Shown here piece after piece: positions 6,769 through 16,818 of a stretch of 64,000 nucleotides of DNA; position 1 is the stretch's first letter; each line of letters starts with the position of its first letter. This DNA is from Rubrobacter xylanophilus (GTDB lineage: Bacteria > Actinomycetota > Rubrobacteria > Rubrobacterales > Rubrobacteraceae), in NCBI RefSeq assembly GCF_007164525.1, contig NZ_AP019791.1:186001-250000 (forward strand). The letters run 5' to 3'. The notes beneath the pieces are model-generated. The model saw only the letters and a program-made list of their open reading frames with translations. It made no database searches and was not told where the DNA came from. Made by a program: the position numbers and the translations under genes.

Positions 6769-7980
6769 ATGCCGGAGAGAGTCGAGGGCGGTGGGCGGGC
6801 CGCATCCTCCGCCGACCCTGCCGTCGAGGGCCGGAGCTCGACCGAGGTCAGGGAGGAGGCCAAGAGCGTCGAGTTCACCTACCGGGGTATCTTCCAGAAG
6901 ACGCTTGCGGCCAACTTGTGCAAGCACGTGGTGATGGCGGCCCGCAAGCGGGATTGGCTGGGGTCGACCATCCAGCGCTACAGCGACTCGCCGGAGCGCA
7001 ACGGGATACCGGCCAAGCAGTTTGCTGTCATCGCCCCCGACGAGGTAAAGCTTCAGGCCCACATGGCCAAGTACGAGCCGAACGAGCTCGACGTGATCAC
7101 GGTACTCGACGACACTCTGTGCGACGGGGTGGAGTCGTGGGCCTACTACGGCCGGCAGCCCATAAACCTGCGGCTGCGGCGCGGCGGCACCCTGCTGGTC
7201 ATCTCCCACCGCCCGGCCGAGGAGCTTCTCAAGGTCATCCCGCGCAAAGACTGGGAGTGGACGCTGGCCATCCTGCCGGGCACGCCGAGCATGGGCGGGC
7301 TCTGGGTATACCGCGACGACGGCACGGACATGCGGGTGCTCGGGGCCATCGCCCGGGTACGCCCGGACATCATCGAGCTGGACGAGGTGCGCCGGGTCGT
7401 GGAGAGCGACGACCAGCTCGGGGAGGAGCACCTCGGCGCGCTGGAGGACGGCTACGAGAGCGTCCGGGTCCACCGGGTTGCGGCCGGTGAGGGCAAGGAG
7501 GACGACTACGAGCCGGTGCGGCTTCCGGGCTGGCGGGAGCTGCGTGAGGGCATCATCGTCGAGGCGGTCAAGCCCGGCGAGCGCAACCCGCACTACAAAT
7601 CCTCCTCCGACCGCACCATGCGGCCCGTCGTCAACTTCGACACCTGCATCAAGTGTCGCCAGTGCTGGATCGACTGCCCCGACGAGTGCTTCGAGGTCAC
7701 AGAGGAGGGGCTGCACCCCATCAACTACGAGTACTGCACCGGCTGCGGCATCTGCTCTCAGGTCTGTCCCGTCGAGGACTGCATCGTCATGGTCAACGAC
7801 CTGGAGTTCATCGAAGAGGGCGACCGGGACGTCTTCGGGATGTGGAAGGAGGATCCGGAGGCCTACAACAGGTGGCGCGAGGAGAAGATAGCCCGCGGTC
7901 GGATAGAGCACCACGGCTACTACAACGCCGACACCTGGGCGTGGGCCGGAGGCCGGCAGGCCGAGAGCCCCGTCGAGTAG
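6769..7980 (+). CDS. 2-oxoacid (oxalate?):ferredoxin oxidoreductase, fused gamma-delta subunit
   Basis: A 403-residue protein. Residues about 45-260 form the gamma domain (begins FTYRGIFQK, contains NLRLRRGGTLL). Residues about 290-345 form a delta domain with two [4Fe-4S] motifs, CIKCRQCWIDCP and CTGCGICSQVCP, which pass electrons to ferredoxin. The ATG at 6769 is preceded by AAGGAGGGCGAG. Separate alpha and beta genes follow, so the enzyme is a three-polypeptide alpha, beta, gamma-delta form, the same arrangement I recall for Moorella oxalate oxidoreductase. Pyruvate or 2-oxoisovalerate as substrate remains possible; the alpha-subunit residues favour oxalate. Confidence 0.82.
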   Translation: MPERVEGGGRAASSADPAVEGRSSTEVREEAKSVEFTYRGIFQKTLAANLCKHVVMAARKRDWLGSTIQRYSDSPERNGIPAKQFAVIAPDEVKLQAHMAKYEPNELDVITVLDDTLCDGVESWAYYGRQPINLRLRRGGTLLVISHRPAEELLKVIPRKDWEWTLAILPGTPSMGGLWVYRDDGTDMRVLGAIARVRPDIIELDEVRRVVESDDQLGEEHLGALEDGYESVRVHRVAAGEGKEDDYEPVRLPGWRELREGIIVEAVKPGERNPHYKSSSDRTMRPVVNFDTCIKCRQCWIDCPDECFEVTEEGLHPINYEYCTGCGICSQVCPVEDCIVMVNDLEFIEEGDRDVFGMWKEDPEAYNRWREEKIARGRIEHHGYYNADTWAWAGGRQAESPVE

Positions 7981-8026
7981 CGCTCGCCATGGTTGGTTCG
8001 GGAAGCAGAGGGGAGGCGAAGGGGTC

Positions 8027-9241
8027 ATGACCATAGAGAAGCCGGTCGGGCGGCAGACCGAGAAGCTGACCACCGGCACCCAGGCGGTGGCCCAGGCGGT
8101 GAAGCTGGCCGACGTCGACGTGACGGCGGCCTACCCCATAAGGCCCTACGACGGGGTGATGCAGGCCGTGGCCAAGCTCATCGCCGACGGGGAGCTCGAC
8201 TGCGAGTTCATCGTCGCCGAGGGCGAACACTCGCAGTTCGAGATCTGCAAGCACGCCTCCGCCGTGGGCAGCCGGGTGTTCGTGGGCTCCTCGGGCGTGG
8301 GCTGGATGTACGCGATGGAGTCGCTGTGCGTCACGCCCTCGCTCCGGCTGCCGGTGGTGGCGATGATCGGCAACCGGGCGCTCGACGATCCCGGCGCCTT
8401 CGGGGTGGAGCACAACGACGCGATGGCCGTGCGGGACCTGGGCTGGCTGCTCTTCTGGGTCGAGGACGCCCAGGAGTGCTTCGACGCCACGCTCATGGCC
8501 TACAGGGTCGGCGAGGACCCGCGGGTCTCGCTGCCGGTCGGGCTCGGGGTGGACGGGGCCTTCATCACCCACTCCCAGACGCTCATCAAGATCCCCGACC
8601 AGGAGACCGTAAACGAGTTCCTCCCGCCCTACGACCTCGGGGACCGGCTGTTGCACCCGGACAACCCCATCAGCATCGCGCCCCAGGCCAACGAGGACTG
8701 GGTGATGGAGATCCGCAAGCAGACCGACGCGGCCGCGAGAAGGGTGAAGGACGTGATCCGGGAGGCCCACCAGGACTTCCGGCGGCTCTTCGGGCGCGGG
8801 GGCGACAACCCCTTCTTCGAGGAGTACATGACCGAGGACGCCGAGTACGTCCTCTTCGGCATGGGGAGCCTCGGGCTTCCGGCCAAGGTCATGGTGCGCA
8901 GGCTTCGCGAGCGCGGCGAGAAGGTCGGCTTCGTTCGCCTGAAGTGGTTCAGGCCCTTCCCGGCCGAGGAGCTCGCCGAGTCGCTCGGCCGCTTCCGGGC
9001 CGTCGGCGTCATAGACCGGGACTACTCCTACGGCTCGCCGCAGCAGGGCGGGGTGCTCTTCACCGATCTGCGGGCCGCCCTCTACGACGCCGAGCGGCGG
9101 CCGAAGATAGTGAACTTCATCGGCGGCCTGGGCGGCCGGGAGCTCACCCCCGAGATGATGGACGAGATGGCCGACCTCACCAAGCGGGCCGGAAGGGGCG
9201 AGGAGGTCCCTGCGGTCAGCTGGATCGGGGTGCGCGAGTGA
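8027..9241 (+). CDS. 2-oxoacid (oxalate?):ferredoxin oxidoreductase, alpha subunit
   Basis: A 404-residue subunit with the pyrimidine-binding TPP domain and a C-terminal domain II. The usual substrate motif YPITPxT reads YPIRPYD here, placing Arg39 where pyruvate enzymes have Thr. A second Arg (Arg117, in GNRALDDPG) is the equivalent of the substrate-binding Arg of pyruvate:ferredoxin oxidoreductase. In the Moorella oxalate oxidoreductase structure the two arginines are, as I recall, Arg31 and Arg109: the same 78-residue spacing. Two positive groups would suit the dianion oxalate. The catalytic Glu region (VAEGEHSQFE) is present. ATG at 8027 lies 46 nt after the gamma-delta gene. Confidence 0.85.
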   Translation: MTIEKPVGRQTEKLTTGTQAVAQAVKLADVDVTAAYPIRPYDGVMQAVAKLIADGELDCEFIVAEGEHSQFEICKHASAVGSRVFVGSSGVGWMYAMESLCVTPSLRLPVVAMIGNRALDDPGAFGVEHNDAMAVRDLGWLLFWVEDAQECFDATLMAYRVGEDPRVSLPVGLGVDGAFITHSQTLIKIPDQETVNEFLPPYDLGDRLLHPDNPISIAPQANEDWVMEIRKQTDAAARRVKDVIREAHQDFRRLFGRGGDNPFFEEYMTEDAEYVLFGMGSLGLPAKVMVRRLRERGEKVGFVRLKWFRPFPAEELAESLGRFRAVGVIDRDYSYGSPQQGGVLFTDLRAALYDAERRPKIVNFIGGLGGRELTPEMMDEMADLTKRAGRGEEVPAVSWIGVRE

Positions 9242-9266
9242 GGACTTGCGAAAGGAGGACGTTCTG

Positions 9267-10457
9267 ATGACGGTAGAGGCACCGGGCCGGGCGCTCAAGC
9301 TCGAGCCCATAAGGTCCATAAAGAAGGCCCCGGTGGAGGAGTTCTACCAGTCCGGGCACCGCACCTGCCAGGGCTGCCTCTCGGCGCTCCCCATGCGGCT
9401 CATGGCCAAGGCCGCCGGCCCCCGCACCATCGTGCTGGGGACCACCGGGTGCATGTACGTGGCCAACACCACCTACATGACCACCCCCTGGGTGGTGCCC
9501 TGGATGCACACCCAGCTCGGTGCCGCTGGCTCCGCGGCGGTCGGGACCTCCGCCGGGCTCAAGGCGCTCATGCGCAAGGGGAAGATGAAGGACGAGCCGA
9601 TAAACGTAATCGCCTTCTGCGGCGACGGCGGCGGGGCGGACATGGGGCTCTCGGCCATCAGCGCCGCCCTCACCGATATCGAGTACAACCTCCTGATCTT
9701 CCTCTACGACAACGAGTCCTACGCCAACACCGACATCCAGACCTCGGGCCAGACGCCCTGGGGGGCCGTCACCACCTTCAGCCCGCCGGGGAAGAAGTTC
9801 CGCATCATGCAGCGCCGGTGGAAGAAGAACGTCCCCGGCATGCTCGCCGCCGGGCACCCGGACACGAGGTACGTGGCCTCCGGCACCCCGGCGATACCGG
9901 TGGACATGATGGACAAGGTGCGCAGCGCGCTGCGAGCGGGAGGTCCGACCTACATCCACGTCCTCGATCCCTGCCCGAAGGGCTGGCACTACGATCCCGA
10001 GCACTCCAACGAGCTGGGCAAGCTGGCCATCGAGACGGGCATCTACCCGCTCTACGAGGTGAAGGACGGGGTCCTGAACTTCACCGGCATAACCAAGCAG
10101 ATCGCCGAGGGCCGGCGCCGCCGCAAGCCGGTGCGGGAGTACCTGGAGAAGCAGGGGCGCTTCGCTCACTTCAAGAACCAGGACTACGCCTACTTCCAGA
10201 AGAAGGTCGACGAGATGTGGGAGCAGTGGATCATCCCCTGCGTCGTGGCCTTCTCTTACGGCGGCCCGATCAACATCACCGGCGATATCCCGAAGGTGCG
10301 CAACCGCAACGTGAAGCGGGAGAACGCTTCCTGGGCCGGCGAGCCGGGACACAGCCACGAGCAGTTCGCCGAGACCCCGGACGAGCCGCAGGAGCCCTGG
10401 CGCGACGACAACGAGCTCGGCCGCTACCCCTGGGCTCTGCCCTCCACCGGTCAGTAG
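9267..10457 (+). CDS. 2-oxoacid (oxalate?):ferredoxin oxidoreductase, beta subunit
   Basis: A 396-residue TPP-diphosphate-binding subunit. Cluster ligands appear as CQGC (Cys34, Cys37) and later Cys residues in TTGCMY and DPCPKGWH. The TPP/Mg motif starts GDGGGAD near residue 119 and continues to NESYANTDIQTSGQTP. It begins at ATG 9267 with AAAGGAGG upstream, 25 nt after the alpha stop; an in-frame TTG at 9246 is less likely. It forms the active site with the alpha subunit and carries the cluster near TPP. A strong terminator follows at 10471, so the three genes form a closed operon. Confidence 0.88.
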   Translation: MTVEAPGRALKLEPIRSIKKAPVEEFYQSGHRTCQGCLSALPMRLMAKAAGPRTIVLGTTGCMYVANTTYMTTPWVVPWMHTQLGAAGSAAVGTSAGLKALMRKGKMKDEPINVIAFCGDGGGADMGLSAISAALTDIEYNLLIFLYDNESYANTDIQTSGQTPWGAVTTFSPPGKKFRIMQRRWKKNVPGMLAAGHPDTRYVASGTPAIPVDMMDKVRSALRAGGPTYIHVLDPCPKGWHYDPEHSNELGKLAIETGIYPLYEVKDGVLNFTGITKQIAEGRRRRKPVREYLEKQGRFAHFKNQDYAYFQKKVDEMWEQWIIPCVVAFSYGGPINITGDIPKVRNRNVKRENASWAGEPGHSHEQFAETPDEPQEPWRDDNELGRYPWALPSTGQ

Positions 10458-10500: not shown

Positions 10501-11025
10501 TTATGCCCGGCCCTCTGAGAGGAGCTCTTCGGAGAGCCCCACGTACCGGACGAGATCCTCCAGCGCCGCCCGGCGGGCCCTGCCCGTGTCCCGCCAGGCG
10601 TCGAGCCGGCTGGAAACCTCCAGCCGGGTCCAGGGCGCCCGCCACACCTCCCGCCCCTCCATGACGAGCCGCAGCGGCTCGGTCATCTCGCGGATCCCGA
10701 AGTCCGTCCCCGGTGCGTAGTCCACCACCCGCTCCCCGGCGCACTCCTCGGCGACCAACTCCCTCACCGGCTTCCCGGGAGAGAGGTGAAACTCGAACTC
10801 GTCCCCCCACGCGTTCGGCCAGTGGGTCACCACCAGCCCATCCTGCCCCATCACGGTGACCACCCTGCGGTACCCCTTCAGATGCTCCGGCACCGCCCGG
10901 GAGGGGATCGCCAGCTCGTGATCCTGGAGCCTGCTGCGCAACTCCGCATAGTAGGTCTGGTAGTACTCCGTGATCTCCCGCCTCAAAACCTCAAGATCCT
11001 TCCCGCTCAACTCCCCAAATCTCAC
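10501..11025 (-). CDS. Hypothetical protein divergent from the aminotransferase
   Basis: A 174-residue soluble protein beginning VRFGELSGKDLEVLRREITEY. The GTG at 11025 is preferred because GAGGAGGTGG lies about 9 nt upstream; the open frame runs further to 11196, but that extension would cross the operator region. No motif I recognise; it is rich in aromatic and acidic residues. It shares an intergenic region holding two FadR-like operators with the aminotransferase gene, so it may belong to the same regulon, but its role is unknown. Confidence 0.6.
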   Translation of the reverse strand: MRFGELSGKDLEVLRREITEYYQTYYAELRSRLQDHELAIPSRAVPEHLKGYRRVVTVMGQDGLVVTHWPNAWGDEFEFHLSPGKPVRELVAEECAGERVVDYAPGTDFGIREMTEPLRLVMEGREVWRAPWTRLEVSSRLDAWRDTGRARRAALEDLVRYVGLSEELLSEGRA

Positions 11026-11082
11026 TCCGCCACACCACCTCCTCAAAAATCCCACACCCGAAATCAGATGATAGATCACCGG

Positions 11083-11098
11083 AACTGGACCTACCAGC
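11083..11098 (+). promoter_or_regulatory. FadR-type GntR operator, site 2
   Basis: AACTGGACCTACCAGC has CTGG and CCAG half-sites (CTGG-N5-CCAG). It lies just upstream of the -35 box of the aminotransferase promoter and between two divergent genes. Confidence 0.45.
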
Positions 11099-11100
11099 TC

Positions 11101-11129
11101 TTGACACAAACGCTGCAGGGATATAAGCT
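11101..11129 (+). promoter_or_regulatory. Promoter of the aminotransferase-transporter operon
   Basis: Perfect TTGACA; a 17-nt spacer gives TAAGCT, while a 15-nt spacer gives TATAAG. The start point should fall near 11136, where operator site 3 lies. Confidence 0.55.
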
Positions 11130-11135
11130 GTCGGC

Positions 11136-11150
11136 AACTGGTCCTACCTT
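11136..11150 (+). promoter_or_regulatory. FadR-type GntR operator, site 3
   Basis: AACTGGTCCTACCTT matches TGGT-N3-ACC and closely resembles the classical E. coli FadR sequence core CTGGTCCGACC. It spans the predicted start point of the aminotransferase transcript. Confidence 0.55.
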
Positions 11151-11261
11151 TGTAGGCGGGAAGAGGGTGAGCGGGTGAAAGGGAAGCGGCCTCCATCCGA
11201 CGGCTGAAGCGGCACCCCGGTCGGGGTCGGCTTGGCCGTCGTCTTCGGAGGGTTTTGGGAG

Positions 11262-12467
11262 ATGGCTTACCGGAGCGGGAGGCACTTCTTACAGGTGCCC
11301 GGTCCTACCAATATACCGGACCGGGTCTTGCGGGCTCTCTCCGCTCCCACGATGGACCACCGGGGGCCGGAGTTTGCCCGGCTCACGGGGGAGGTGCTGG
11401 GGGGGCTGCGGCGGGTATTCCGGTGCTCGGGGCCGGTGCTCGTCTATCCCTCTTCCGGGACCGGGGCGTGGGAGGCGGCGCTGGTCAACACCCTTTCGCC
11501 GGGCGACCGGGTGTTGATGTTCGAGACGGGACACTTCGCGACGCTGTGGTGTGGGGTTGCGCGGCGTTTGGGGCTGGAGGTGGAGTTCGTGCCGGGCGAC
11601 TGGCGGCACGGGGTGGATCCCGAGGTGGTTCGGTGGCGGCTCTCGAGGGACCGGCGGGGTGAGATAAAGGCCGTCGCGGTGGTGCACAATGAGACCTCCA
11701 CGGGGTGTACCAGCCGGATAGCGGAGATCCGGGAGGCGATCGACGGGGCCGGGCATCCGGCCCTCTTTCTCGTGGACGTCATCTCCTCGCTCGGGTCCAT
11801 CGACTACCGGCATGACGAGTGGGGGGTCGACGTGGCGGTGGGATGCTCGCAGAAGGGGCTGTTGCTGCCGCCGGGGCTCGGGCTCAACGCCCTCGGCGAG
11901 AGGGCGCTCGAGGCTTCGCGGGAGGCGCGGCTCCCGCGCTCCTACTGGGACTGGCGGCCCATGCTCGAGAGCAATGCGGGCGGCTACTTCCCTTACACTC
12001 CGCCGACCAATCTCCTGTATGGGCTGCGGGAGGCGCTCGGGATGCTCTTCGAGGAAGGGCTCGAGAACGTCTTCGCCCGGCACCGGCGGCACGCCGAGGC
12101 CACCCGGCGTGCGGTGCGGGCCTGGGGACTCGAGGTGCTGTGTCTCGAGCCCGAGGAGTACAGCGCCTCTCTCACCGCGGTGCTGATGCCCGAGGGTCAT
12201 GACGCCGACGAGCTGAGGCGCGTCGTGCTGGAGGAGTTCAACATGTCGCTGGGGGCGGGGCTCGGCAAGCTCGCGGGGAGGGTCTTCCGGATAGGGCACC
12301 TCGGCGATCTCGGTGATCTCATGCTCGTCGGTGCCTTGAGTGGGGTGGAGATGGGGCTCTCGCTGGCAGGGGTTCCGCATTGCAGGGGAGGGGTTGCGGC
12401 CGCCATGGAGTATCTGACCGGGACCGTCCGGGCCGGCGGGGAGCGAGTTCTGGTCTCCGGAGGATAG
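11262..12467 (+). CDS. Serine-glyoxylate / alanine-glyoxylate-type aminotransferase (class V)
   Basis: A 401-residue PLP enzyme of fold type I. It begins SGRHFLQVPGPTNIP, has the class-V SSGTGAWE motif and the PLP-lysine segment GCSQKGLLLPPG (Lys near residue 199). These features are characteristic of serine-glyoxylate aminotransferases, which convert glyoxylate plus serine to glycine plus hydroxypyruvate; alanine may be the donor instead. ATG at 11262 follows GGAGG by about 9 nt, and the 5' leader holds operator site 3. Next to the putative oxalate oxidoreductase and under the same operator type, it supports a C2-acid pathway. It is probably co-transcribed with the downstream transporter. 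Confidence 0.88.
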   Translation: MAYRSGRHFLQVPGPTNIPDRVLRALSAPTMDHRGPEFARLTGEVLGGLRRVFRCSGPVLVYPSSGTGAWEAALVNTLSPGDRVLMFETGHFATLWCGVARRLGLEVEFVPGDWRHGVDPEVVRWRLSRDRRGEIKAVAVVHNETSTGCTSRIAEIREAIDGAGHPALFLVDVISSLGSIDYRHDEWGVDVAVGCSQKGLLLPPGLGLNALGERALEASREARLPRSYWDWRPMLESNAGGYFPYTPPTNLLYGLREALGMLFEEGLENVFARHRRHAEATRRAVRAWGLEVLCLEPEEYSASLTAVLMPEGHDADELRRVVLEEFNMSLGAGLGKLAGRVFRIGHLGDLGDLMLVGALSGVEMGLSLAGVPHCRGGVAAAMEYLTGTVRAGGERVLVSGG

Positions 12468-12512: not shown

Positions 12513-13988
12513 ATGGCTGACGTAACCACCGGTCGAGAACAGAGGGAGAGGTTGTGGAAGGCGGGGCGTCTCGATCCCATGCCCATCCGGCCGCTGCCCG
12601 AGGCCCCCAACTCGCTGCACATACTCGGGCCGGCCATGATCCTCGTGGCCCTCGGCGTCGGGCTGGGGGAGACCTACATGTGGCCGCGGCTCGTGCTGTT
12701 GTTCGGGCCCGAGATCCGGTGGCTCTTCCTCATCGGGGTGACGGTGCAGGCGGTGGTGATGTTCGAGTTCGCCCGCTATGCGATAGCCACCGGCGAGAGC
12801 ATCTTCTTCGGGGCGGCGCGGCTGTGGAAGCCGATAATGTGGTTCTTCTTCGCGGTGGCCATGCTGATCTACATCTGGCCCGGGCACGTCGCCGCCGGGG
12901 CCGACGCGCTGGAGCTCCTCACCGGCATCCCCTGGCTGGTCTCGGCCATAGTGGCGCTTTTGCTCATCGGGGTCATCTTCACCTTCGCCAACGTGGTCTA
13001 CAACGCGGTCGAGAGCATCCTCACGTTTCTCGTGGGGGTGATGGTCATAGGTTCGGCCGTGGTGGCCGCCGTGGTGGGCAACTTCGGCGATCTGTGGGCC
13101 ACGATCACCGGCCTGTTCGCCTTCGGTTACATCCCCGACGAGGCGCTCACGGCGGCGTGGTTCCCGATCATCGTGGGCTCCGTGGCCTTCGCCGGTCCTT
13201 CGGGGATGCAGCAGATGTGGTACACCCTCTACCTGCGGGACAAGGGGGCCGGGATGGGCGCCTACCTGCCCCGCATCCGGGGCCTGCTGCACGCCGACGA
13301 GGAGGAGAGCATGCCCTCCCGCGGCTACATGTTCGACACGGATGATCCGGAGGAGCTGCGCAAGTGGAAGGGCTGGACCCGCTGGGTGCTCTTCGACGCG
13401 CTGGTGCTCTTCTGGGGCATAACCATGCTGGTGACCATCGTGTTCACCGTTTTGGCCCTGCAGGCCTCGCGGCTCAACCCGAACGTCCAGCAGGCCATCG
13501 AGGCCGGCGAGGAGAGCGCCGCGATAAGCGCCATGGCCGACGCCTTCGCCTCCGCCGGCGGCTTCATCATGGGCGGTGCGTTCCTGCTGTTCATCGCTAT
13601 CGTGGGCTGGAAGGGAACGCTGGGCATCTTCGACGCCTTCGCCCGGGGACAGTCCGACATGGCGTACTATTTCATCCCCGGGCTGCGGCGCTTCAACATA
13701 AGCTACATCTACTTCGCCTTCCTGTGGGGGGTCATAGCCTTCGGCATCCTGGTGCTCCTCTTCTTCGGTCCCACCGACGGCCCGCAGGCGATACTCGGGG
13801 TGCTGGCGTTCCTCTCCACGTTCGTCATGGGGGCGTACTGCGTGTTGCTGCTCCTGACGAACAATTTGCTGCTGCCGAAGAACATCCGGCCCGGGATCCT
13901 GAACAACGCCTTTATAGCGCTGGGGGCGCTGTTCTACCTCGGGATACTGTTCTACAGCCTGCTGGCCTACGGGGCGCTTCCGGACTGA
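12513..13988 (+). CDS. Nramp-related membrane transporter without the DPGN metal site
   Basis: A 491-residue membrane protein with about eleven membrane segments. It looks like the Nramp/APC-fold family: the first helix carries GPAMILVALGVGLGETYMWPRL (family position of DPGN), and the sixth-helix region reads VAFAGPSGMQQMW. True Nramp metal carriers have DPGN in helix 1 and a Met in helix 6 that bind Mn or Fe; here DPGN is replaced by GLGE, so the substrate is probably not a divalent metal. Its place after the glyoxylate aminotransferase suggests an organic anion or a related metabolite, but this is only inferred. A cytoplasmic loop near residues 255-285 is charged. Confidence 0.75.
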   Translation: MADVTTGREQRERLWKAGRLDPMPIRPLPEAPNSLHILGPAMILVALGVGLGETYMWPRLVLLFGPEIRWLFLIGVTVQAVVMFEFARYAIATGESIFFGAARLWKPIMWFFFAVAMLIYIWPGHVAAGADALELLTGIPWLVSAIVALLLIGVIFTFANVVYNAVESILTFLVGVMVIGSAVVAAVVGNFGDLWATITGLFAFGYIPDEALTAAWFPIIVGSVAFAGPSGMQQMWYTLYLRDKGAGMGAYLPRIRGLLHADEEESMPSRGYMFDTDDPEELRKWKGWTRWVLFDALVLFWGITMLVTIVFTVLALQASRLNPNVQQAIEAGEESAAISAMADAFASAGGFIMGGAFLLFIAIVGWKGTLGIFDAFARGQSDMAYYFIPGLRRFNISYIYFAFLWGVIAFGILVLLFFGPTDGPQAILGVLAFLSTFVMGAYCVLLLLTNNLLLPKNIRPGILNNAFIALGALFYLGILFYSLLAYGALPD

Positions 13989-14004: not shown

Positions 14005-14526
14005 GTGGACACGACCTCCGCGCGCCTCATCGCCGAGGTGGCCTTCCCCGGTGCGGCCATAGGGCTTGGCGCCGGGATGGTGGCCGGGGGGGTGGCCGCG
14101 GTGGCCGGCCTCCCCCCCGGCTACGTGGTGCTCACCACGCTCGGGCTGGGGCTGCCGCTAGCCCTCTTCGGGGCGGGATACGACCTGCTGTTGGCCTCCG
14201 GCAGGATCCGGCTCGGGGGCGTCACCCCGGCGGTGTTCTACTGGCTGCCGGCCTTTCCCCTGGCGCGGCTGTTCCACGAGGCGTTTCTGGATCTGGGACT
14301 CGGCCGGGGGGTGGCGTTGCCGGAGGCCCTGCCGCAGTTTGTGGCCTACCAGGCGATACTGAGCACCGGGTTCGCCATCGGCTTCCTGTGGCTCCACGAG
14401 CACCTGGGGCCGCTGTGGTGGCCCCGCATCCGGGATCACAATCCCGTGGCCGCGCGCTACGTGCACCTGTACACGCGCCACGCGGCGGCCATGGAGCACC
14501 GCCGGCGGGCGAAAAAGAGGCGCTGA
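14005..14526 (+). CDS. Hypothetical membrane protein of the transporter operon
   Basis: A 173-residue protein with four likely membrane segments (about 12-35, 38-60, 75-92, 112-132) and a basic C-terminal tail ending HRRRAKKRR. GTG at 14005 is 16 nt after the Nramp-like stop, so the two are co-expressed and this may be an accessory subunit. I do not recognise the family. Confidence 0.6.
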   Translation: MDTTSARLIAEVAFPGAAIGLGAGMVAGGVAAVAGLPPGYVVLTTLGLGLPLALFGAGYDLLLASGRIRLGGVTPAVFYWLPAFPLARLFHEAFLDLGLGRGVALPEALPQFVAYQAILSTGFAIGFLWLHEHLGPLWWPRIRDHNPVAARYVHLYTRHAAAMEHRRRAKKRR

Positions 14527-14601: not shown

Positions 14602-15288
14602 TTGCTGCACTGGGACATCATCTCAAAGCTCGGGGGTCTGCTGTTCGTGAACCTCATCCTCTCGGGGGACAACGCGGTGGTCATAGCGATGGCCAGCCGC
14701 CGCCTCAAGGGTTCGCTGCGCCGCAAGGCCATCGTCTGGGGGGCGGCCGGGGCGGTGGGGCTGCGGATGGTCTTCGCCGCGGTGGTCACCCTCCTGCTCT
14801 CCATCCCCCTTCTCCGGGCGGCGGGAGGGGCGCTGTTGTGCTGGATCTCCTGGGGACTCGTCCGGGAGGACGACGGTGGAGAGGACGGGGGTCCGGGCGA
14901 AGAGGTGGGCGAGGGCTCGGGCAAAGGAGTGTGGGACGCGGTGAAGATCATCGTGCTCGCCGACGCAGTGATGTCCCTGGACAACGTCATAGCGCTCGTG
15001 GGGATCGCCGGGGGCAACCTGTGGCTGCTCGCGGTGGGGCTGTTGTTGAGCATTCCGCTGGTGATCTGGGGCAGCACCCTGCTGAGCGCGCTTCTGGAGC
15101 GGCTTCCGGTCCTGGTGTACGCCGGCGCGGCCCTGCTGATCTACGTCGCGGTGGAGATGTTCTTCGAGGACGAAGCGCTGAAAGGCCTCCTGGCGCCGCT
15201 GGCGGACGTGGAGTGGGCCGTGGGGCTGGCCGCGGCCGCGGTCTTCACGGCCGTAGCCTGGGGATGGTCGCGCCTCAGGAGGGCTTAG
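14602..15288 (+). CDS. TerC/YjbE family membrane protein
   Basis: A 228-residue integral membrane protein of the TerC family, YjbE subgroup. Two conserved Asp-Asn motifs are present: LSGDNAVVIAMAS (residues about 20-32) and VMSLDNVIALVG (about 128-139). Family members are linked to manganese export or metallation of secreted enzymes. TTG at 14602 is supported by GGGAGGAACG upstream. No room exists for a yybP-ykoY riboswitch (only about 75 nt upstream). Its 3' end overlaps the convergent HTH gene by 14 nt. Confidence 0.85.
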   Translation: MLHWDIISKLGGLLFVNLILSGDNAVVIAMASRRLKGSLRRKAIVWGAAGAVGLRMVFAAVVTLLLSIPLLRAAGGALLCWISWGLVREDDGGEDGGPGEEVGEGSGKGVWDAVKIIVLADAVMSLDNVIALVGIAGGNLWLLAVGLLLSIPLVIWGSTLLSALLERLPVLVYAGAALLIYVAVEMFFEDEALKGLLAPLADVEWAVGLAAAAVFTAVAWGWSRLRRA

Positions 15289-16100: not shown

Positions 16101-16802
16101 TTAGAGGCTGCGGGCGACGTCGGCTATGTGTTCCTTCATGGCCTTCTCGGCCGCCTCCTGGTCGTGCTGCATGACGGCCTCCAGGATGCGGCTGTTGCCC
16201 TCCAGCGAGCGCCGGGAGCGCTCTCCGTGCTGGAAGAGCCGCTCGTAGGAGTCCTCGAGCAGCCCGTTGATGACGTCCATCACCCGCTCGACGACGGTGT
16301 TGTGGGTGGCCTGCGCCAGGAGGCTGTGGAACTCGGCGTCCTCCTTGGGGGTGGGCTGGCCGCGCTCTACGCGCTCCTGCTGCCGCCGGATGACCGCTTC
16401 GAGCCGCCGGATGTCCTCCTCGTCGGCCCGGGCCGCGGCCTCGCGGGCGACCTGCGGCTCGAAGAGCAGCCGGGCCTCCATGAGCTCTCGCCGCAGCTGG
16501 GCCTTGCTGTTGCTGAGGACGCTGGCTATGGGCGCCACCAGGTGCTCGCTGGTGATCTCCCGGACGTAGTTGCCCCCGCCGTGGCGGCTCTCCACCAGAC
16601 CGTGCGCCTCCAGCTGCCGTACCGCTTCCCGAACCACCGCCCGCCCGACCTTGAACTGTTCGGCCAGCTTGCGCTCGGAGGGAAGCGCCTGCCCCGGCTG
16701 GAGCTCGCCGCTGGCTATGAGCCCGCGGATGTGGGCGGCTATCTTCTCGTAGAGTTTCCTGCGCCGCGCCGACTCAGAGTTGTTGGGCGAAGGAGGGCTC
16801 AT
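16101..16802 (-). CDS. GntR family transcriptional regulator, FadR/FCD subfamily
   Basis: A 233-residue regulator. Residues about 15-80 are the winged helix with LPSERKLAEQF, VGRAVVREAVRQLEAHGL and GGGNYV. Residues about 95-225 are an FCD effector domain (DAEFHSLLAQATHN, then AMKEHI). In metal-binding FCD proteins a His precedes the RxIL segment; here the position is Asn (EGNSRIL), so metal binding may be altered. FCD regulators usually sense small carboxylates. The ATG at 16802 lies 7 nt after a TGC-TATATT extended -10, so the mRNA is probably leaderless. FadR-like operators at 6713, 11083, 11136 and 17108 make these genes likely targets. Confidence 0.88.
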   Translation of the reverse strand: MSPPSPNNSESARRRKLYEKIAAHIRGLIASGELQPGQALPSERKLAEQFKVGRAVVREAVRQLEAHGLVESRHGGGNYVREITSEHLVAPIASVLSNSKAQLRRELMEARLLFEPQVAREAAARADEEDIRRLEAVIRRQQERVERGQPTPKEDAEFHSLLAQATHNTVVERVMDVINGLLEDSYERLFQHGERSRRSLEGNSRILEAVMQHDQEAAEKAMKEHIADVARSL

Positions 16803-16809
16803 GAAAAAC

Positions 16810-16818
16810 AATATAGCA
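16810..16818 (-). promoter_or_regulatory. Extended -10 of the GntR gene
   Basis: Read on the minus strand: TGC-TATATT, then 7 nt, then the ATG. This geometry places the start of transcription at or next to the start codon. Confidence 0.5.

Follow-up and report, generated by a model that had tools for sequence, protein, structure and literature searches.

The window, a 64,000-nucleotide stretch of the genome of the heat-loving bacterium Rubrobacter xylanophilus (contig NZ_AP019791.1, positions 186,001 to 250,000), carries at positions 6769-10457 three adjacent genes for the subunits of a predicted 2-oxoacid:ferredoxin oxidoreductase. Judged from sequence, these very likely form an alpha-beta-(gamma-delta) enzyme of the oxalate oxidoreductase (OOR) kind, which depends on thiamine pyrophosphate (TPP) and Fe-S clusters and would oxidize oxalate to CO2, here in an aerobe; the genus Rubrobacter is described as obligately aerobic (PMC8146576). 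OOR is known from anaerobic acetogens, where it breaks oxalate down to CO2 and electrons. By analogy with the OOR of Moorella thermoacetica, oxalate would be the substrate, coenzyme A (CoA) would not be needed and ferredoxin would be the acceptor; a transporter and a physiological role are likewise proposed below.

Family assignment of the three subunits

The gamma-delta, alpha and beta genes are co-directional with intergenic gaps of 46 and 25 bases, and their open reading frames (ORFs) are intact, bearing out the subunits noted in a preliminary description of this DNA, which had proposed an OOR candidate. That description started beta at TTG 9246, which is probably 21 bases too early. We prefer ATG 9267 because a ribosome-binding site, AAAGGAGG, precedes it and a relative in the same genus has an ATG at the equivalent place (L016:7619).

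OOR was the top NCBIfam model for all three subunits (NF045790, NF045791 and NF045792), and the Moorella enzyme was the top PDB match for alpha (5c4i_A, E 1e-104), beta (5c4i_C, E 9e-91) and gamma-delta (5c4i_B, E 1e-18), with scores of 354, 308 and 71 bits against 216, 199 and 51 bits for the next-best pyruvate enzymes. The alpha subunit is 47% identical to that of Moorella. Structure models, made of single chains, had a mean predicted local distance difference test (pLDDT) score of 76 for gamma-delta and 64 for beta; in Foldseek, ranks 1-8 for the gamma-delta model were all Moorella OOR chains, and the top match of the beta model was Moorella OOR beta (E 3e-26).

The subunits also have the layout of OOR, namely a gamma-delta fusion, separate alpha and beta, three [4Fe-4S] motifs and a TPP motif. 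The match to PDB 5c4i agrees with the preliminary description in that the fusion is arranged as in Moorella. Gamma-delta consists of a gamma domain and two [4Fe-4S] ferredoxin motifs, CIKCRQCWIDCP and CTGCGICSQVCP, whose cysteines are invariant in 53 sequences, while beta carries the TPP-binding motif GDGGGADMG...NESYANT and four conserved cysteines for the proximal cluster. The canonical gamma family PF01558 has no match in the window genome, as would be expected if the gamma domain is divergent. This genome is a single contig of 3,022,875 bases, in which a profile search found no other POR_N protein over the cut-off, and the enzyme is the sole 2-oxoacid:ferredoxin oxidoreductase found in its 3.02 Mb.

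Active-site residues

In OOR, oxalate is bound through Arg31 of a YPIRP motif that replaces YPITP, a feature setting OOR apart, together with the conserved Arg109 (PMC5020499). In the alignment with Moorella, Arg39 of the window alpha (in YPIRPYD) corresponds to Arg31, Arg117 to Arg109 and Asp120 to Asp112, confirming both arginines noted earlier and their spacing of 78 residues, which equals that of Arg31 and Arg109. Arg39, Arg117 and Asp120 are invariant in all 85 alphas of the clade set, whereas the eight pyruvate-type alphas in the same alignment have Thr39 and Ser120, and eight more added later have YPITPQ. Arg117 by itself is not diagnostic of OOR because pyruvate enzymes have the same arginine.

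Beyond these residues, 28 positions in alpha and 17 in beta are common to the clade and Moorella OOR and absent from pyruvate enzymes (over 95% in the clade, the same in Moorella, and in at most one pyruvate-type sequence); since such a criterion favours OOR by design, the count is descriptive and the tree serves as the independent test. The conservation of PG[AD]FG[VE]EH was partly imposed by the scan pattern and is unused as evidence; Arg39, Arg117 and Asp120 lie outside the patterns.

Phylogeny and distribution

The alignment and tree proposed in the preliminary description as a check separate the alpha subunit from the pyruvate-type alphas and place it next to the Moorella-type OORs, the opposite of the pyruvate grouping that would have refuted the proposal. 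A careful maximum-likelihood tree of 57 alphas, of which 19 were pyruvate-type or related and five were Moorella-type, supported the pyruvate-type enzymes with 100/100, the Moorella-type OORs with 100/99 and the window's clade with 100/100, in agreement with an earlier quick tree. Rooted on the pyruvate-type enzymes, the window's clade is the sister of the Moorella-type OORs, around which the program flagged long branches; this sisterhood holds against pyruvate-type enzymes only, because the tree contained no functionally known alphas of phenylglyoxylate, isovalerate or oxoglutarate enzymes.

In a single scan across 84,980 species genomes, 279 relatives were confirmed, and the best 80 of them were analysed. 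Among these, the nearest named relatives are Rubrobacteraceae, and identity to the window outside this family is 62-67%. The 80 comprise Acidobacteriota (33), Chloroflexota (10, including SAR202), Pseudomonadota (10), Myxococcota (6), Actinomycetota (4), Armatimonadota (4), Methylomirabilota (4), Rokuibacteriota (3) and others (6). Because nearly all of them were assembled from metagenomes, single cases may reflect binning errors. Within Rubrobacteraceae, the enzyme is present in 7 of 35 other genomes. The enzyme is not peculiar to an actinobacterium; it is widespread, and most of the lineages that have it are not known to be anaerobic. A plasmid search returned only pyruvate-type or related alphas, with less than 37% identity. 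By sequence, the clade is a large, many-phylum subfamily that is new here; we did not find it described in the open literature, a search that left subscription papers and preprints aside.

Moorella-type OORs also turned up in other settings. Such loci occur at L061:11424-16301 and L068:6364-11261 (Acidobacteriota) and at L138:8037-13297 (Actinomycetota), with alphas over the NCBI cut-off (521-578 bits where scanned), a separate gamma and a 610-622-residue GltD-like NAD(P)-binding flavoprotein that carries the ferredoxin (delta) motifs. At L061 and L068 this enzyme stands in tandem with a member of the window's clade, and L138 also holds TctA-like, TctC-like and GntR genes (identified by eye). 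A further locus, L137, is Moorella-type by alpha only, and in a sample of 396 Actinomycetota genomes two have a Moorella-type OOR over the cut-off.

Oxalate-related genes beside the relatives

We clustered the ORFs of 83 loci by BLAST and counted neighbours within 6.5 kb of alpha. A major facilitator superfamily (MFS) gene of one cluster was found at 27 loci, TctC at 13, GntR/FCD regulators at 48 and a CoA-transferase of the Frc cluster at 9; these counts are not independent events, because the loci come from related genomes. The full-length MFS neighbours matched the oxalate/formate antiporter model TIGR04259 in 24 of 25 cases at E <= 1e-99, and in 24 of the 26 loci that have both this gene and beta, no more than 250 bases separate the two (in two of the 24 they are on opposite strands). 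Antiporter-bearing loci are mostly from Acidobacteriota and Myxococcota, and the link is seen in at least these two phyla. Four of the nine CoA-transferases match Frc at E <= 1e-99, and two match glutarate CoA-transferase instead. No OxlT or Frc was found beside 13 pyruvate-type loci, most with about 3 kb of flank. The GntR/FCD regulator cluster (cluster 3) is represented in 53 of the 83 loci, in other phyla usually directly upstream of the enzyme.

Some loci have further conserved neighbours. In four Acidobacteriota (L043, L046, L051 and L061), genes for a class V aminotransferase, an acyl-CoA ligase and a ketopantoate-reductase-like protein stand in a row upstream of the enzyme, possibly for assimilation of oxalate via oxalyl-CoA and glyoxylate to glycine. 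At L083, L092, L095 and L102, a GltD- or ferredoxin-NADP-reductase-like flavoprotein adjoins the enzyme and is a possible electron acceptor. A long conserved block lies downstream of the enzyme in SAR202-type and other Chloroflexota (L080, L086, L087, L096, L097 and L098), with genes for a flavin mononucleotide (FMN) 2-hydroxyacid oxidase-like protein, an alpha/beta hydrolase, a PIG-L-type protein and an M20 peptidase.

The Rubrobacter locus

The features of the window locus are listed in Table 1. The Nramp-like gene follows beta in 5 of the 7 Rubrobacteraceae relatives read and was not found in the other two, L019 and L022, the latter a contig of only 5 kb. Metal transport by its product is doubtful because the DPGN and MPH metal-binding motifs are lacking; a paralogue in the same genome has both. 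Our guess is that it carries a carboxylate such as oxalate; its gene stands where acidobacterial loci have OxlT. A phmmer search found no PDB relative of the protein.

Table 1. Genes of the candidate oxalate oxidoreductase locus and selected neighbours (window coordinates)
Feature	Coordinates	Strand	Remarks
Gamma-delta fusion subunit	6769..7980	+	403 aa; ATG start; intact ORF
Alpha subunit	8027..9241	+	404 aa; intact ORF
Beta subunit	9267..10457	+	396 aa; alternative start TTG 9246
Class V aminotransferase	11232..12467	+	best NCBIfam model BhcA, below cut-off; possible accessory
Nramp-like membrane transporter	12513..13988	+	NF037982, 416 bits; candidate oxalate or carboxylate carrier
GntR/FCD regulator	16101..16811	-	same cluster as regulators upstream of the enzyme in other phyla

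The glyoxylate-type aminotransferase that the preliminary description pointed out beside the enzyme is real, and its best model is BhcA (aspartate-glyoxylate aminotransferase), which it matches with 456 bits where the cut-off is 650, yet it is not a conserved neighbour. We treat it as weak evidence because it lies about 770 bases past beta and, of the seven relatives read, was found in the congener G001 only. Between beta and this gene, on the opposite strand (10501-11196), is a gene for a 231-residue protein of unknown family that is kept near the locus in Rubrobacteraceae. The Nramp-like gene is followed by genes for a 173-residue membrane-like protein (14005-14526) and a TerC-like protein (14602-15288), as in several Rubrobacteraceae.

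Proposed function and alternatives

As an enzyme of the OOR kind, it would hold oxalate between the alpha residues Arg39 and Arg117, beside the TPP of beta. Attack by TPP and loss of a first CO2 would leave a carboxy-TPP adduct, which would release the second CO2 without CoA, and the two electrons would pass from the beta cluster through the two delta clusters to ferredoxin. Oxalate would then serve the cell as a source of reducing power, or be detoxified, with no need for the oxalyl-CoA pathway. The neighbouring Nramp-like protein is a possible route of uptake, and the GntR/FCD regulator a possible means of control.

Several observations weigh against this assignment. Every subunit falls below its NCBI equivalog cut-off (alpha 400 against 500 bits, beta 355 against 590, delta 105 against 230). 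Moorella Asp116, which lies in a plug loop and is reported to be important for a bait-and-switch mechanism together with Arg31 (PMC5020499), is Ala124 in the window and Ala in 83 of the 85 alphas, so the details of the loop switch must be different; the two with Asp are the second, Moorella-type copies of L061 and L068. No oxalate/formate antiporter in the window genome exceeds the cut-off (best 182 against 335 bits), and the direct link to oxalate therefore comes from the relatives. The operon contains no acceptor gene, and an explanation is needed for low-potential ferredoxin chemistry in an obligately aerobic host. With the scores below the cut-offs and Asp116 absent, the enzyme belongs to a sister subfamily and is not a close orthologue; the proposal that it is an OOR stands, at the level of kind, on the tree and on the oxalate genes beside its relatives.

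As for the aerobic host, the altered plug loop and C-terminal extensions may be adaptations to oxygen. Gamma-delta has a C-terminal helical extension at about residues 348-380, modelled with pLDDT of about 88-96 in a chain of low confidence at residues 1-28 and 382-403; its helices past about residue 347 are not found in Moorella, whose chain stops at the matching place. An extension of the pyruvate:ferredoxin oxidoreductase of Desulfovibrio africanus shields its clusters from oxygen, and we hypothesize by analogy that the gamma-delta extension might do the same. Beta has a long C-terminal tail, for which oxygen shielding stays speculative because the tail is of low confidence in the model.

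The loss of Asp116 would also suit an OOR-like enzyme whose substrate is a different 2-oxoacid, small and charged or hydrated (glyoxylate, mesoxalate or oxaloacetate, for example), if the second arginine reads a carboxylate and not oxalate specifically. The glyoxylate-type aminotransferase near the enzyme in two Rubrobacter genomes and the 2-hydroxyacid oxidase-like gene after it in SAR202-type loci point the same way, but Arg39, Arg117 and Asp120 are fixed and oxalate/formate antiporter or Frc genes adjoin relatives in several phyla, and we regard this alternative as unlikely. A pyruvate or 2-oxoisovalerate ferredoxin oxidoreductase of ordinary central metabolism with a changed motif is far less probable still. 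Such an enzyme belongs to the same superfamily and PorA models reach up to 340 bits on alpha, but the 100/100 split in the tree, the change of Thr to Arg in YPITP, the many OOR-specific positions and the oxalate genes near the loci of relatives speak against it; we rejected this identity on the tree and the diagnostic positions.

A variant that does not exclude OOR activity concerns the source of the oxalate, which could be internal, for example from glyoxylate, and be oxidized for detoxification or redox balancing and not for growth. The lack of an antiporter over the cut-off in the window genome fits this, as does the presence of glyoxylate metabolism, in the form of a glyoxylate carboligase (717 bits, just over the cut-off); in the acidobacterial relatives, by contrast, the oxalate/formate antiporter coupled to the enzyme speaks for uptake. 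We regard the variant as less likely than not.

Plants and fungi produce large quantities of oxalate, yet its level in soil is low. A 2023 survey named types II, III and V (oxc, frc and oxdC) as the widespread bacterial pathways and assigned others to eukaryotes or to specific bacteria such as acetogens (PMC10192776), and a 2021 gut survey omitted OOR for lack of information (PMC8062136). On balance, we think that the clade is probably an unrecognized OOR subfamily of about ten phyla, mostly from soil or marine settings, and provides a CoA-independent route missed by surveys of frc, oxc and oxdC; many members are expected, from their lineages, to be aerobic. If so, Acidobacteriota, SAR202 and Rubrobacter are candidate oxalate oxidizers, and one could study how a low-potential TPP/Fe-S enzyme tolerates oxygen. 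Rubrobacter xylanophilus is in culture, and the claim is therefore testable.

Comparison with known systems

The oxalyl-CoA pathway (Frc and Oxc) of aerobic oxalotrophs acts on the same substrate and its Frc adjoins some relatives of the enzyme, but it is CoA-dependent and yields formate; in the window genome neither Frc nor Oxc is found over its curated cut-off (best 197 against 504 and 177 against 739 bits). The pyruvate:ferredoxin oxidoreductases, of the archaeal PorABCD type (9bt4) or the fused type (6cin, 1b0p), share the fold, the cofactors and the arginine at 117; they are CoA-dependent and have YPITP and a Ser at 120, whereas the window enzyme has YPIRP and Asp120 and lies in a distinct clade. 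The GltD-linked Moorella-type OOR, a candidate oxalate oxidoreductase that is likely NAD(P)-linked, has YPIRPY and nearby transporter or GntR genes in common with the window, but belongs to the sister clade, retains Asp116 and keeps gamma separate. The OOR of Moorella thermoacetica itself (5c4i, 5exd, 5exe) shares the subunit plan, the equivalents of Arg31, Arg109 and Asp112, TPP and three [4Fe-4S] motifs, and the window enzyme differs from it by Ala in place of Asp116, by the gamma-delta and beta extensions and by its obligately aerobic host.

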